From the NCBI GenBank assembly GCA_947623995.1, contig CANQIN010000007.1, forward strand, positions 1 to 34,097: a stretch of DNA of 34,097 bases, written 5' to 3'. Every line of letters starts with the position of its first letter. The stretch's first letter is position 1. The stretch comes from an uncultured Bacilli bacterium (GTDB lineage: Bacteria; Bacillota_I; Bacilli_A; RF39; UBA660). The translations under genes were made by a program, and so were the position numbers. A model generated the notes under the pieces. That model saw only the letters and a list, made by a program, of their open reading frames with translations, ran no database searches and had not been told where the DNA came from. Positions 4,070 through 30,170 of this stretch are shown here, in pieces.

Positions 4070-4954
4070 TTATTTTTTTATAGTTTTTTTTAATTCAAGT
4101 ACAGCTTCTTCATTAAGGCCAGTAAAAGCTGTTATTTCGTCAATTGGTTTATTAGCTTGTAGCATATTTACAGCAACAGTATTTAAACTTCGTTCTTCTC
4201 CACGTTCTTCGCCAATTTTTATGCCACGTTCTTCTCCACGTTCTTCGCCAATTTTTATGCCACGCTCTTCACCAATAGCCTGATTCTTTCTAGCTTCCCA
4301 TTCTTCTCTTGCAAAATCTTTTCTAGTTTCTTCATTATTTAAAAATTCCTTTAGACATTCAGTTATGCTCATTAAGACATCATCTCCTTTACTTATTTTT
4401 TTCATTTCTTTTATACTTTTGGCATTAAATAGTCTAAAATATTTATTTAATTTATCATTTACACCTACATTATAATCTTCTTCTTTTATTTTGTCAAGAT
4501 TTATAAAATAGATAATAAAATCATCATCTAATATACCAAATATTTTTCTATCAATATCTAATAGTCCATATTTACTAAATCCTATATTACCAGCCATTTT
4601 TCCACAAATATTAACTTGAATGACTCTTTTGGGAAGATATTCGCTACCCCTTTTAATCTGGGTTCCATATATTCTAAAAGCATAGCTTTTACTTTTATTA
4701 GCTTCTCGTTTTCCAAAAACTGAATAAGCTTCTAGATTAAGTATAACATCATTAAATTCAGCAACAATGTCACATCTTAACTTTTTATCGTTATATTCAG
4801 TTTCAGGTAAAACATCTTCACTTTTAAGTAGGATATCTTCATGTTTGTATTTAGTATTAAAAAAAGCATTAATAAAATCAAGAGCATATTCTTCTTTACT
4901 AAAAACATGATTAAAACATTTATCTTTAAATAATGGGTAAAATTTTCTAGACAT
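4070..4954 (-). CDS. Rpn family / PD-(D/E)XK nuclease family putative transposase
   Basis: FYPLFKDKCFNHVFSKEEYALDFINAFF; RCDIVAEFNDVILNLEAYSVF nuclease core; GEERG-rich linker and TAFTGLNEEAVLELKK C-terminus. Confidence 0.88.
   Translation of the reverse strand: MSRKFYPLFKDKCFNHVFSKEEYALDFINAFFNTKYKHEDILLKSEDVLPETEYNDKKLRCDIVAEFNDVILNLEAYSVFGKREANKSKSYAFRIYGTQIKRGSEYLPKRVIQVNICGKMAGNIGFSKYGLLDIDRKIFGILDDDFIIYFINLDKIKEEDYNVGVNDKLNKYFRLFNAKSIKEMKKISKGDDVLMSITECLKEFLNNEETRKDFAREEWEARKNQAIGEERGIKIGEERGEERGIKIGEERGEERSLNTVAVNMLQANKPIDEITAFTGLNEEAVLELKKTIKK
4191..4262. repeat. perfect 36-bp tandem repeat x2 plus partial third unit inside the Rpn gene (12-aa GIKIGEERGEER units)
   Basis: cgttcttctccacgttcttcgccaatttttatgcca at 4191-4226 and 4227-4262. 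Confidence 0.9.
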
Positions 4955-5010: not shown

Positions 5011-5118
5011 ATACCAATTTTGTAATTTAGATTAAAATTGGCTAACAAATTTTCAAAATTGGTCTAGCGAATTTTCAAAATTTGCAAAAAAAATAATACC
5101 AATTTTCAATTTTGGTAT
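5011..5118. repeat. intergenic inverted/tandem repeat block bounded by ATACCAA...TTGGTAT
   Basis: CCAATTTT...AAAATTGG dyad, direct repeats AAAATTGG-ctaac-AAATTTTC / AAAATTGG-tctagcg-AATTTTC / AAAATTTGC, then ATACCAATTTTCAATTTTGGTAT at 5096-5118. Confidence 0.6.
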
Positions 5119-5223
5119 ATTTTTTGAATTTACGTAAATTTACACTATTTTACGCAAATATTTTACTATATATAATTTTAATAATATTAATTAACAAAAT
5201 AAAAAAGCGTTATAAATTAACAC

Positions 5224-6573: not shown

Positions 6574-7116
6574 TTATTTATCATTTTTAAGATTATCTAT
6601 AGATTTAAAAGTATTATCTCTTTTATTATGGTGAGCAATAATTCTGTTAGGTGATACAACAACAGTTGAATTACTTGGAATGTCATTTACAATTACAGCG
6701 TTTGCCCCAATACGTACATCATCGCCAATATTTACATTTCCTATTATTTTAGCACCTGCACCAATATACACATTATTTCCTATTGTAGGTGCACCATAAT
6801 GTTTAGAATCAGTCAAAGTATTACTTCCTATTGTGACTTGATGAAAAATAGTACAATTATTACCTATTTTAGCTTTTCCAGAAATATAAATACCACTTAT
6901 TCCATGAGGAAAAGTAATTAAATTAAAATCAGTAGGAATATCAGAGCTAATTCCAATAAACGAATTATTTCGGTAACATAATTTTTGATATTTTCTTATT
7001 CTTAATAATTTAATTGCTTTGACTAAATACCCCCCCCCCACTGGGATTTGGGTTATTTTTCTTTTCAATTTTAGTATTTTTTTGGTATCAATTTTATCAA
7101 AGTCACTACATTTCAT
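6574..7116 (-). CDS. hexapeptide-repeat (CysE-like) acetyltransferase, frame open through a G10 tract
   Basis: Left-handed beta-helix repeats IGNNCTIFHQVTIGSN...IGNNVYIGAGAKIIGNVNIGDDVRIGANAVIVNDIP; IPVGGGYLVKA encoded by the G10. Confidence 0.9.
   Translation of the reverse strand: MKCSDFDKIDTKKILKLKRKITQIPVGGGYLVKAIKLLRIRKYQKLCYRNNSFIGISSDIPTDFNLITFPHGISGIYISGKAKIGNNCTIFHQVTIGSNTLTDSKHYGAPTIGNNVYIGAGAKIIGNVNIGDDVRIGANAVIVNDIPSNSTVVVSPNRIIAHHNKRDNTFKSIDNLKNDK
7030..7039. repeat. C10 homopolymer (G10 on coding strand), putative phase-variation tract in acetyltransferase gene
   Basis: aaataCCCCCCCCCCactggg; G9 or G11 each give a stop within a few codons. Confidence 0.9.
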
Positions 7117-7190: not shown

Positions 7191-7216
7191 TTTTAACAAA
7201 TATATTTTTGTTAAAA
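7191..7216. repeat. perfect 10-bp-arm inverted repeat overlapping the MBOAT stop codon
   Basis: TTTTAACAAA-tatatt-TTTGTTAAAA. Confidence 0.7.
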
Positions 7217-8602
7217 TTGAAAATAAACAAATGGAGATTCACCAGTAAATGCTAGTATTAATAGTAATCCACACATTACCAAAAATATTGTTAAACCTAA
7301 AATATTATTTAAATTTACAACTGGATAATAACCATTAATTGAATCATTTTTAAGTTTTCTAGATTTTATTATAGCACATACAGTGGCAATTATCATTACT
7401 AATAATGAAAGATATGACCAAAAGAAATTATGAATTATACCATTTTGCAATGTGAATATTCCTTTTATTACTTTCCATGCTATCATAAAATTTTCAGCTC
7501 TAAAAAATATCCAAGTAAATGTTATAAAACAATATGTTATAAAAATATTAAAACATATTTTTATAATATTTTTTGATTTCTTATGCTTTAACATTTTATC
7601 AAAACATAATGCTAGACCATTTAAACCTCCCCAAAAAACAAAAGTCCAATTAGCTCCATGCCATAGGCCACCTAATAACATTGTTATAAATAAATTTATA
7701 TATTGTCTAATTTTGCCTTTTCTATTACCCCCTAAAGGTATATACAAATATTCTTTTAACCAAGTAGATAAGCTTATATGCCATCTACGCCAAAATTCAG
7801 TTACATTTTGAGATAAATAAGGTAAATTAAAATTACAATTAAAATCATAACCTAAACATTTTGCACACCCTATTGCTATATCAGAATATCCAGAAAAGTC
7901 AAAATAAATTTGAAAAGAATATGATACTATACATAATAACAACGTTGTCCAATGAAATGCACTTGGAGCAAAAAATACTTCATCTATAAATACAGACATA
8001 TGATCTGCTAAAACAATTTTTTTAAACAATCCAAAAATTATTAATTGAATACCATATTTAAAATTATCAGCAGTTATTTTGCGTTCTTCTTTTAATTGAG
8101 GTAAGAAATCTTTTGCTTTTACAATTGGACCAGCAACAAGTTGTGGAAAAAAGCTTAAATATAATGCTAATCTAATAAAATCATTTTCTACGGGAATTTT
8201 ATTTCTTTTAACATCGATAACATAACTTAATGCTTGAAAAGTATAAAAAGAAATTCCTACAGGGAGAATAATATTCAAAACTCCTAAATTATGTCCAACA
8301 ATATTAGAAAATGAAGTTAAAAAGAAATTAAAATATTTAAAGAAACCAAGTACTACTAAAGGAATTACTATTCCAAGTACATATATTCCTTTTTTATCTT
8401 TATATTTTGCCGTAAAATAAGAACTTATAGTTACAAACATTAATAGAAAACAAAAACGCCAATCCCAATATCCATAAAAGAAATAACTAGCAATTAATAA
8501 AAATACTTCTTTTACTCTTTTAGAAAAAAATTTTTGAATTATAAGCGTTCCTACTATTACTACTATAAAAAATATTATAAAATCTATTGACGCAAATGAC
8601 AT
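7211..8602 (-). CDS. MBOAT family O-acyltransferase (AlgI/DltB-like)
   Basis: FRLALYLSFFPQLVAGPIVKAKDFLPQ; NVTEFWRRWHISLSTWLKEYLYIPLGGNRKG; GGLWHGANWTFVFWGGLNG. Confidence 0.95.
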   Translation of the reverse strand: MSFASIDFIIFFIVVIVGTLIIQKFFSKRVKEVFLLIASYFFYGYWDWRFCFLLMFVTISSYFTAKYKDKKGIYVLGIVIPLVVLGFFKYFNFFLTSFSNIVGHNLGVLNIILPVGISFYTFQALSYVIDVKRNKIPVENDFIRLALYLSFFPQLVAGPIVKAKDFLPQLKEERKITADNFKYGIQLIIFGLFKKIVLADHMSVFIDEVFFAPSAFHWTTLLLCIVSYSFQIYFDFSGYSDIAIGCAKCLGYDFNCNFNLPYLSQNVTEFWRRWHISLSTWLKEYLYIPLGGNRKGKIRQYINLFITMLLGGLWHGANWTFVFWGGLNGLALCFDKMLKHKKSKNIIKICFNIFITYCFITFTWIFFRAENFMIAWKVIKGIFTLQNGIIHNFFWSYLSLLVMIIATVCAIIKSRKLKNDSINGYYPVVNLNNILGLTIFLVMCGLLLILAFTGESPFVYFQF

Positions 8603-8603
8603 A

Positions 8604-9671
8604 TTATTCTGCCCCCTTAATTATTTTATATAGTTCTTCAGCAATCATATTATGACCATATTTATTTAAATGACCTTTTCCAATTGTAGTATTATTAAAA
8701 CCATATGGTAAAATATAATTTTTTTCATATTCTTCTCTAAATCTATTACTCATATCAAGAAAATAAATTTCATTTTCTTGACATAATTTAGAAAATCTTT
8801 CTACATCTTCTTTTTCACTGTTTAAAAATTGCAAATTTCCACTAGAATCTAAAGATAAATTAGGATGGTAAACGATTATTACTTTAACTTTATTTTCAAC
8901 TGTATTCTTTATTTTATTTAGAATTTCCCAAGTAAGTTGTTCATTAAATCTTATTTCTTCATCTTTTGAAGAAGTAGTTTTTTTAGATGTTAGTTCATCT
9001 AATTGCCTTCTTACTAATCTTAAAAATAAACTTTGTTTATAAAAATATTTAATGATTTTTTTTACTGAATTTAAAAGTCCAGAATTTTCTGAAGAAATTT
9101 TATCATTGCTTTCTTTTTCCAAAATATCGATTAGCTCTTTATCAGAGTATTTAACATCTGCCATTTCTAAAATTATATAATCAGTAGGATTATATTTACT
9201 AATTGCTGGAGATATATTACTTATACTTTTTGGAAATAAATTACTTGAAATTCCAATGTTATAAACAAATTTATTTTCTAACATTTCATTTAATTTAGCA
9301 GTAACTGAATCTTTAATATCAACTTGAAAAGCTTCAAATTGTGATGAACCTACCATTAATATATTGACTTCCTTATTAGAATCATAATCTTCTATATTTA
9401 CATATCCATCGTTATTAATTCTACCATGACCATATCCTTCAAGAGCATATGTATAATTTTCCATAGGTTCATATTTATAATCTGTTACTTTAAAAGAAGA
9501 ACTTTCATCCTTATCAGAATATGGCATATTAGAATAAAAACGACTAATAAATTCTAATATCAAAAATGCAAGCATACAAGATACTAGAATTTTAAAACAG
9601 TAATTTATTTTTGGCTTATATGAATTATTTCGATAGGTACCCCCCCCCCTAAAATTGCTATTTTTATGCAT
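8604..9671 (-). CDS. membrane-anchored SGNH/DltD/AlgX-like protein, partner of MBOAT; G10 tract at codons 8-11
   Basis: N-terminal TM helix; NILMVGSSQFEAFQV (SGNH block I-like), C-terminal GHLNKYGHNMIAEEL; abuts MBOAT gene. Confidence 0.82.
   Translation of the reverse strand: MHKNSNFRGGGTYRNNSYKPKINYCFKILVSCMLAFLILEFISRFYSNMPYSDKDESSSFKVTDYKYEPMENYTYALEGYGHGRINNDGYVNIEDYDSNKEVNILMVGSSQFEAFQVDIKDSVTAKLNEMLENKFVYNIGISSNLFPKSISNISPAISKYNPTDYIILEMADVKYSDKELIDILEKESNDKISSENSGLLNSVKKIIKYFYKQSLFLRLVRRQLDELTSKKTTSSKDEEIRFNEQLTWEILNKIKNTVENKVKVIIVYHPNLSLDSSGNLQFLNSEKEDVERFSKLCQENEIYFLDMSNRFREEYEKNYILPYGFNNTTIGKGHLNKYGHNMIAEELYKIIKGAE
9640..9649. repeat. C10 homopolymer (G10 on coding strand), putative phase-variation tract near 5' end of SGNH gene
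   Basis: ggtaCCCCCCCCCCtaaaat; MHKNSNF-RGGG-TYR. Confidence 0.92.
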
Positions 9672-9719
9672 AACTATAAACTCCTTCCTACTGATATTTA
9701 CTAATCTAATTTAATTTAA

Positions 9720-10814: not shown

Positions 10815-12024
10815 TTAATTTAAAAATTTCTTGATTTTTTCCTTAATACTTTTTGGAAGTAATCTTAAAATTTTTCTTGGCAAAAATAAAATTTTATACT
10901 TTATTAATTCATCCTTTAAAGCTTTTGTAGCAGATATTTTAAAATTATTTGTTAAAACATATTCTTCTTCAAAAAGTTTTCTATTCTTATGCTTGATAGT
11001 TGGTGAATTTAAAGCTTTATTATATTTTATTGCCTCAATAGCATTATTTTGTTTAAAAACTACTATTTTTTTATCAGTAATTAAATTATTGATTAAATTT
11101 TTACCTTTTTGAGTATTTTCTAATATCACAGACACTTGTGTACGATCATTTTCACTAATTCTTAAATCTTTTGAGCCATCAACATCACCAAGTGTAATAT
11201 CCGATATTCTTTCATTTCTAGCATAATGACAATGATAACAATTTTCTCTTAAAATTAAATTATTTATAAAACCTCGATAATAAACATCATCTTGATAAGG
11301 TGTCTTTGAATAAAATTTTTCAAGATTGTCATCATATAAAGATAAATAATAACTAGAATTTTTATTTCTAAAAGTAATATTTGATACCTCTTTATTATAT
11401 TTCTTAGAAATACTAGAAATATGTTGTTTTAAATACTCAGAAGGTACAACTCCATGACAAGCAAGATCGACTAAAATTAAGTTATCTATCTTTTTAGCTT
11501 TCATAAACATACTTTTTACTGCTGCAGCTTGACATGGCAAACCAACAAATAAAACCCTTTTATCATTTAAAATATCATTTTCTAAACTTTTAAAAATGTT
11601 AGATAAATCAGCATGACAATATTTAGAACCAATTACTTTTTTAATATCTTTTATGTTGTCAATTTTTACATAGTTGTAAACGTACCCCCCCCCCTATTGC
11701 ATTACAAGCTACACCATAAGTTGAATATTTTTTTTCTAAAGCATACTTATATAATTCTTGAGCAATACCTCCACTGGTACTACTATTTCTTATATCTATG
11801 TCACTACTCCATCCAAAATAAACATTTTGGGGTAATTTATATTCTAATTTCTGCTTAGCTGGACAATTTTTTTTGCAAAGATGACAAGATATACATTTAT
11901 CTTTATCAATAACTGGATATTGAACTCCTAATTCATCCTTTTTAAAAGATATACACTTTTTAGGACATACATTACTACATAACTTACAACCAGTACAATC
12001 ATTTTTACTACATATATCTGACAT
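10815..12024 (-). pseudogene. FrhB-like (coenzyme F420 hydrogenase/dehydrogenase beta subunit family) 2x[4Fe-4S] protein, split by a G10 frameshift (ORFs 11659..12024 and 10815..11540): phase-OFF allele
   Basis: N-part CTGCKLCSNVCP...CISCHLCKKNCP; removing one G gives ...NAIGGGYVYNYVKIDNIKDIKKVIGSKYCHADLSNIFKSLENDILNDKRVLFVGLPCQAAAVKS... running directly into the C-part. Confidence 0.9.
11685..11694. repeat. C10 homopolymer (G10 on coding strand) at the frameshift of the FrhB-like gene
   Basis: cgtaCCCCCCCCCCtattgc; present frame stops at TGA 11661-11659. Confidence 0.95.
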
Positions 12025-27614: not shown

Positions 27615-28235
27615 TTAATCAATATTTATATTTTTTTTCATTTTTAGAATATCTAATTCATCTTTTATTGTTTCTTTACCAGCATTAACTCCATCTTTTA
27701 CAAATATAGCTTTAATAGTTAGAAAAAAAACTTTTAAATCTTGTTTAAATGAAAAATTTCTAACATATTCTAAATCATAATTAATTTTTTCTATTATAGT
27801 TAAATTATTTCTTCCTTTTACTTGAGCAAGACCTGTAATTCCTGGTAAAACATCACATCTATGTCTTTGTTCTTCATTCATATTCTCGTAATATTCAGGT
27901 ATCCATGGTCTCGGTCCAATAAAAGCCATTTCACCTTTTAATATATTAATTATTTGAGGTAATTCATCTAAACTTAACGATCTAATAAACTTTCCAACTT
28001 TAGTATATTTATCTTTTTCTTTAAAATTATGAACATCATTTTCGGCAACCATACTTCTAAACTTATACATTTTAAATATTTTACCATTTTTGCCAGTCCG
28101 ATCCTGTTTAAATATCACTGGTCCTTTACTATCTATTTTTATTGCAATAGCTATTATAATCATTGGTATTAAAAATAATATAAGTATAGATAAAGCCATT
28201 AGAAAATCAGTAATTCTTTTAATAATTCTATACAT
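27615..28235 (-). CDS. priming sugar transferase (WcaJ/PglC-like), copy A
   Basis: KGPVIFKQDRTGKNGKIFKMYKFRSM; LDELPQIINILKGEMAFIGPRPWIPEY; LPGITGLAQVKGRN. Confidence 0.94.
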   Translation of the reverse strand: MYRIIKRITDFLMALSILILFLIPMIIIAIAIKIDSKGPVIFKQDRTGKNGKIFKMYKFRSMVAENDVHNFKEKDKYTKVGKFIRSLSLDELPQIINILKGEMAFIGPRPWIPEYYENMNEEQRHRCDVLPGITGLAQVKGRNNLTIIEKINYDLEYVRNFSFKQDLKVFFLTIKAIFVKDGVNAGKETIKDELDILKMKKNINID

Positions 28236-29558: not shown

Positions 29559-30170
29559 TTATATATCATTTTCTGTTTTTAAAATATCTAATTCATCTTT
29601 TATTGTTTCTTTACCAGCATTAACTCCATCTTTTACAAATATAGCTTTAATAGTTAAGAAAAAAACTTTTACATCTTGTTTAAATGAAAAATTTCTAACA
29701 TATTCTAAATCATAATTAATCTTTTCTATTATACTTAAATTGTTTCTTCCTTTTACTTGAGCAAGACCTGTAATTCCTGGTAAAACATCACATCTATGTC
29801 TTTGTTCTTCATTCATATTCTCGTAATATTCAGGTATCCATGGTCTCGGTCCAATAAAAGCCATTTCACCTTTTAATATATTAATTATTTGAGGTAATTC
29901 ATCTAAACTTAACGATCTAATAAACTTTCCAACTTTAGTATATTTATCTTTTTCTTTAAAATTATGAACATCATTTTCAGCAACCATACTTCTAAACTTA
30001 TACATTTTAAATATTTTGCCATTTTTTCCAGTTCTATCTTGTTTAAATATCACTGGCCCTTTACTATCTATTTTAATAGCTACTGCTATTAAAATCATCG
30101 GTATTAAAAATAATATAAGTATAGATAAAGCCATTAGGAAATCAATAATTCTTTTAAGAACTTTATACAT
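29559..30170 (-). CDS. priming sugar transferase (WcaJ/PglC-like), copy B
   Basis: ~96% identical by eye to copy A over ~198 aa. Confidence 0.94.
   Translation of the reverse strand: MYKVLKRIIDFLMALSILILFLIPMILIAVAIKIDSKGPVIFKQDRTGKNGKIFKMYKFRSMVAENDVHNFKEKDKYTKVGKFIRSLSLDELPQIINILKGEMAFIGPRPWIPEYYENMNEEQRHRCDVLPGITGLAQVKGRNNLSIIEKINYDLEYVRNFSFKQDVKVFFLTIKAIFVKDGVNAGKETIKDELDILKTENDI
29743..29978. repeat. 236-bp perfect direct repeat with 27808-28043 (within priming transferase copies)
   Basis: Direct comparison of the two segments; mismatches bound it at 29742/27807 and 29979/28044. Confidence 0.85.

Follow-up and report, generated by a model that had tools for sequence, protein, structure and literature searches.

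A G10 tract as a probable contingency switch in the SGNH partner gene of an MBOAT acyltransferase in a Bacilli capsule operon

What does a run of ten G residues do near the start of a membrane-protein gene in DNA that is otherwise almost devoid of such runs? The question is raised by a Wzy-type capsule locus encoding Wzz, CpsB/CapC, a sugar transferase, a flippase, EpsG, a pyruvyl transferase, and LytR-CpsA-Psr. It lies in the window, i.e., the whole 34,097-nt stretch of DNA from an uncultured Bacilli bacterium that was analyzed. On the plus strand of the window G runs extend to four and C runs to five, and the only longer runs are three of ten C; there are no G/C runs of six to nine. At 23% GC, these three runs compare with an expectation of 2e-5 for runs of at least 10 under an order-2 Markov model. 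On the sense strand, all three are G10 tracts within three genes of one capsule operon. The genome, a 1.47-Mb MAG that is 93% complete, contains 33 tracts of G9 to G11 (26 G10, 6 G9, and 1 G11) against fewer than 0.01 expected at lengths of at least 9, and the tracts outside the window are also found within surface-sugar genes or ahead of surface-protein genes. Only two contigs break off precisely at a tract, and such breaks, which repeats confound, were not taken as a sign of length mixture.

The gene in question is a real 355-codon open reading frame (8604..9671, minus strand) with an ATG start and a strong Shine–Dalgarno sequence, AGGAAGGAG (9681..9689, minus strand). Its tract (9640..9649, minus strand) occupies coding nucleotides 23–32, i.e., codons 8–11, exactly where the earlier note had placed it when recomputed. 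In silico, the full-length frame is available only when the tract length n equals 1 mod 3 (7, 10, 13). The G10 form present in the window therefore encodes the intact 355-residue protein (ON), and the other lengths give products of 14 (G8), 21 (G9, ending ...VPIEIIHISQK*), 15 (G11, ending ...GGGYLSK*), and 22 residues (G12); the early stops that the earlier note had predicted for G9 and G11 agree exactly with these lengths. That note had named a functional downstream start as what would undo its reading, and such starts were looked for. The further in-frame candidates, ATG33, TTG37, and ATG49, all lack a Shine–Dalgarno sequence; their use would truncate the membrane helix or leave it out altogether, with ATG33 inside the helix and ATG49 past it in the predicted structure. 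Weak reinitiation at ATG33 could occur in OFF states. The gene thus has a coding-region repeat far above chance length, and a change of one unit leads to an early stop without a good alternative start.

Directly downstream, 1 nt past the stop codon, is a 463-residue MBOAT acyltransferase (7211..8602, minus strand; PF03062, E 1.6e-32, 113.6 bits against a gathering cutoff of 27). MBOAT proteins generally work with SGNH partners, in pairs such as AlgI with AlgJ and DltB with DltD, and the proposal had been that this is an AlgI/DltB-type MBOAT with its SGNH partner. The pairing itself stands, as it is kept in six other loci described below. The Dlt assignment falls away: the protein scores 157 bits against a DltB equivalog cutoff of 375, and the best DltA match in this 93% complete MAG scores 66 bits against a cutoff of 560, so that no bona fide DltA was found. 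The MBOAT is more safely described as AlgI-like, with no acyl group named.

It had also been proposed that the tract would toggle acylation without touching the MBOAT gene, and the support for this is indirect. The MBOAT has its own strong Shine–Dalgarno sequence, AAGGGGG (8612..8618, minus strand), within the last codons of the SGNH gene. No rho gene was matched in the genome, in a search whose control succeeded in 12 of 14 genomes, which speaks against Rho-dependent polarity, and a scan of the window from 5.0 to 14.1 kb turned up no intrinsic terminator. Because of these three features, an OFF frame in the SGNH gene probably does not stop production of the MBOAT. The alternative is that an OFF frame also shuts the MBOAT and acetyltransferase genes, through polarity or lost translational coupling, so that one tract controls the entire acylation module. 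The 1-nt gap and the position of the MBOAT ribosome-binding site inside the SGNH coding end would suit coupling of this kind, but the failure to find a rho gene or a terminator and the strength of that same site argue against it. In addition, the next acetyltransferase, an EpsC/CysE-like hexapeptide O-acetyltransferase (6574..7116, minus strand), has a G10 tract of its own at codons 26–29 (7030..7039, minus strand) and is ON at G10; complete coupling would make this separate tract partly redundant. We regard control of the whole module by one tract as rather unlikely.

The assignment of the product as an SGNH protein is based on fold. The protein itself matches no Pfam family; because ALGX (PF16822) is among those without a match, it does not qualify as an AlgX by that model. 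A profile search against the sequences of solved structures returned only chance matches. An AlphaFold model built from an eight-row alignment (pLDDT 70, with residues 1–19 below 50) has the SGNH alpha/beta fold according to Foldseek: the top PDB hits are SGNH hydrolases, including TesA (1j00, E 1.4e-6), AlAXEase, and rhamnogalacturonan acetylesterase. Weak Lipase_GDSL_2 matches in seven of the eight aligned homologues agree with the SGNH identity given in the earlier note. Invariant blocks across the eight homologues include GSS at 108–110, YNxGxS at 137–142 (YNxG at 137–140), and GHLN at 333–336. G108-S109-S110 (9342..9350, minus strand) corresponds to SGNH block I with the putative catalytic serine, and H334-L335-N336 (8664..8672, minus strand) forms a putative catalytic histidine block. 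The Asp of the canonical DxxH motif is Gly in all eight (G331-x-x-H334), suggesting either that the catalytic triad is noncanonical or that the acid residue is supplied from elsewhere. The model places a single N-terminal membrane helix at codons 24–46 (9534..9602, minus strand), downstream of the tract.

The protein could be a capsule esterase, removing rather than adding acyl groups, given that the nearest folds are esterases and thioesterases. However, the SGNH transferases AlgX, AlgJ, PatB, and DltD share this fold, and the gene sits beside an MBOAT in the window and in six other loci. The N-terminal anchor fits an MBOAT partner but also an anchored esterase. An esterase seems improbable, and a role as transferase partner of the MBOAT is the preferred reading.

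The comparative data are the best evidence for a switch. Homologues were collected by a genome search and a scan of named genomes, giving six named loci (L111–L116) from MAGs named "Lapin...", probably of rabbit gut origin, that belong to Bacilli, Clostridia, and one Oscillospiraceae. These loci have 35–69% identity to the window SGNH protein and GC contents of 23–60%, and the MBOAT gene follows the SGNH gene directly in all six, as it does in the window. The homologue from another genus (L115, the same locus as in G259; 44% identity) has a G8 tract and is OFF, with ON at 9. Locus L112 carries two homologues: the first (L112a, 66% identity) has G10 and is OFF, with ON at 8 or 11, and the second (L112b) has G11 and is OFF, with ON at 9 or 12. 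In all three genes the tract lies between the start and the membrane helix, and its flanking bases differ from those in the window. L111, L113, and L116 have intact N termini without a tract. The homologues form a natural series of one ON, three OFF, and three tract-free genes. Tract length and frame state therefore vary among homologues, between species, and the presence of the same tract site in OFF frames supports the switch proposed in the earlier note. A short stretch ahead of the helix that is not itself conserved thus bears a G tract in several genomes, as a contingency site would. In L114 the likely ATG is followed by A8, which would be OFF if that ATG is used and ON at A7; because A8 is common in AT-rich DNA, this is suggestive only as a candidate switch. 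The same Clostridia MAG has (AT)14 (5100-5127) about 200 nt upstream of its SGNH–MBOAT operon, a possible transcriptional repeat.

The homologue family is rare (3 of the 389 genomes of the bacterial family), and many tract-bearing relatives lack this SGNH homologue. A congener (L100) has a different SGNH-like gene beside an MBOAT, with G10 near codon 21. One homologue, in G412 (L142, 1876-1884), was not counted as a switch: its G9 tract is in the middle of the gene and is followed by TAA in the frame of the second half. With TATAAT also following, it looks like a broken gene or a promoter-like insertion.

Other genes for surface sugars carry similar tracts. The third G10 tract of the window (11685..11694, minus strand) is in an FrhB-like iron–sulfur gene (10815..12024, minus strand) upstream of the SGNH gene in the same operon. 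This gene is split at the tract by a frameshift into halves matching FrhB_FdhB_N and FrhB_FdhB_C; it is OFF, and would be ON at 9 or 12. At the same site its homologues have (AT)17 in L112 (5931-5964) and (AT)8 in L113 (826-841), also out of frame. The site persists although its repeat type alternates between G10 and (AT)n, which points to selection on switching itself. MBOAT–SGNH pairs number only two in this genome, and each has a tract, one in the SGNH gene (ON) and one in the MBOAT gene (OFF). The second MBOAT, on contig C8 (25200-25210; L022, L103), has G11 on its YTWG motif, would be ON at 9 or 12, and has an ALGX-type SGNH protein encoded downstream as its partner. Acyltransferase-3 genes in L112 (10564, G8, ON) and L113 (11402, G9, OFF) have tracts directly after a short N terminus with a GTTAAC motif; the Acyl_transf_3 gene of L025 lies at a contig end. 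Two additional observations concern the window itself. Near-identical sugar transferase genes (27615-28235 and 29559-30170) flank an EpsG-type gene, making them a possible recombination site for swapping of that gene, and a protein encoded at 4070-4954 has a C-terminal array of in-frame imperfect IGEERGEERGIK repeats.

The OFF frames bear on whether the tract, though real, seldom changes and is little more than a tolerated glycine-rich stretch in a gene that is effectively constitutive in this lineage. The SGNH tract in this genome is seen solely as an ON consensus, and G10 is the precise length of 26 of the 33 tracts, which would suit a frozen tract. Set against this, three homologues are out of frame, as are the FrhB-like tract and the tract in the second MBOAT, and G runs of ten are strongly nonrandom. 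G tracts are also established as generally mutable from work in Campylobacter and Neisseria. A frozen tract is, in our view, quite improbable. Slippage of the polymerase or ribosome at G10, yielding a fixed mixture of frames in which tract length tunes dose with no on/off state, is more remote still: homopolymers can cause slippage, but no dedicated slippage architecture is seen, the G8 and G11 homologues would need it too, and stable G–C hybrids disfavor polymerase slippage.

The gene is thus best read, with good though incomplete confidence, as a simple-sequence contingency gene that switches the SGNH partner of an MBOAT and hence capsule acylation. Slipped-strand replication at G10 would change the tract by one base; lengths of 1 mod 3 would give the full protein, and the others would stop after 14–22 residues, ahead of the helix. 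The full product would be membrane anchored and extracytoplasmic. We infer that the MBOAT passes an acyl group through the membrane and that the SGNH protein most likely transfers it to the capsular polysaccharide that the locus produces. When the SGNH gene is OFF, the MBOAT would probably still be made and the capsule would be unacylated. Cells of one clone would then differ in capsule decoration, which might help them to evade phage, antibody, or host lectins. If true, capsule acylation would be a mosaic within one clone, a prediction that can be tested from existing metagenome reads.

Most tracts in the genome occupy a different position. In about 26 of the 33 cases the tract falls within a promoter, flanked by a TTGACA-like and a TATAAT-like box, mostly 35–42 nt ahead of a large paralogous family of surface proteins (MKLEKYVDKN...KTILISISVIVLISVSLLLYKTFASFTESAEFPMMKGKVDYF). 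Examples in this genome (G000) are found near 1500-1509 on the reverse strand in L001, L003, L005, L007, L009, L013, and L015. The layout is TTGACA-TA-G10-8 nt-TATAAT, with spacers that are mostly 19–21 bp at G9 or G10. Because the canonical spacer is 17 bp, shorter than these, expression of most copies may be low or off.

A related genus (G342, G259) has its G tracts in short leader open reading frames, with a U-tailed hairpin and a surface-protein gene coming next in turn (L119, L122, L130, L132, L134, and L136 in G342; L120, L123, L127, L135, and L137 in G259). One of the three frames reaches or nears the hairpin, and in most copies the other two end before that point. Most of the G342 and G259 copies are in a short (OFF) frame with G8 or G9, and copies in G141 and G260 (L117, L118) have G9 and the long frame. 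The layout is that of a putative phase-variable attenuator. Just ahead of the tract these leaders have GTTAAC-N5-GTCAAC, as does the G259/L115 homologue of the SGNH gene, and genes of L112 and L113 have similar bases there; the motif is absent at the window SGNH gene. The shared bases are read in two different frames, which points to sharing at the level of the DNA rather than the peptide, as if a ready-made switch module had been moved onto genes in the related genus. A wider proposal is that G tracts are a general switching device in this family, used in sugar genes, promoter spacers, and leaders, and that the two MBOAT–SGNH pairs, switched via different subunits, form a combinatorial capsule-acylation code. 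This we hold tentatively, with slightly less than even confidence.

In comparison with described systems, this looks like a genuine switch of a known kind that acts on an unusual target. The papers searched did not yield a report of phase variation of this target in this lineage. The leader attenuators would not be a wholly new mechanism. In Streptococcus gallolyticus Pil1, the length of the leader depends on a repeat and determines whether the terminator is read through (PMC3894217), as it would in the G-tract leaders of the related genus; Pil1 uses GCAGA repeats, whereas these leaders use a G tract and occur as several similar copies per genome. The window gene does not work by attenuation of this type.

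The pairs DltB–DltD and AlgI–AlgJ likewise combine an MBOAT with a distinct, anchored protein of SGNH fold in a polysaccharide locus, as do AlgI–AlgX and PatA–PatB (PMC9558356). The pair described here differs in that the curated model does not identify the MBOAT as DltB, no bona fide DltA was found, and the SGNH protein itself matches no Pfam family. No phase-variable SGNH partner of an MBOAT turned up among the papers searched. Phase-variable O-acetyltransferases of surface sugars include NeuO of Escherichia coli K1 (PMC13001214, PMC3046976) and OafA of Haemophilus influenzae (reviewed in PMC9558356), and these resemble the proposed system in the stochastic switching of capsule or LOS O-acetylation. 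However, NeuO acts on its own as one enzyme and OafA is an AT3 protein, whereas here a two-component O-acyltransferase would be switched at its transferase half.

The closest parallel for the tracts themselves is found in the polyG/polyC phase-variable surface genes of Campylobacter (PMC8437040, PMC4965091, PMC8355987), with intragenic G tracts, ON/OFF control by frameshift, capsule and surface-sugar genes as targets, and some tens of tracts per genome. In contrast to Campylobacter, most tracts here are in promoter spacers, the SGNH half of a two-component acyltransferase would be switched, and the host lineage is an uncultured low-GC Bacilli lineage. The comparison adds a dense repertoire of simple-sequence switching in an uncultured family of low-GC gut Bacilli.
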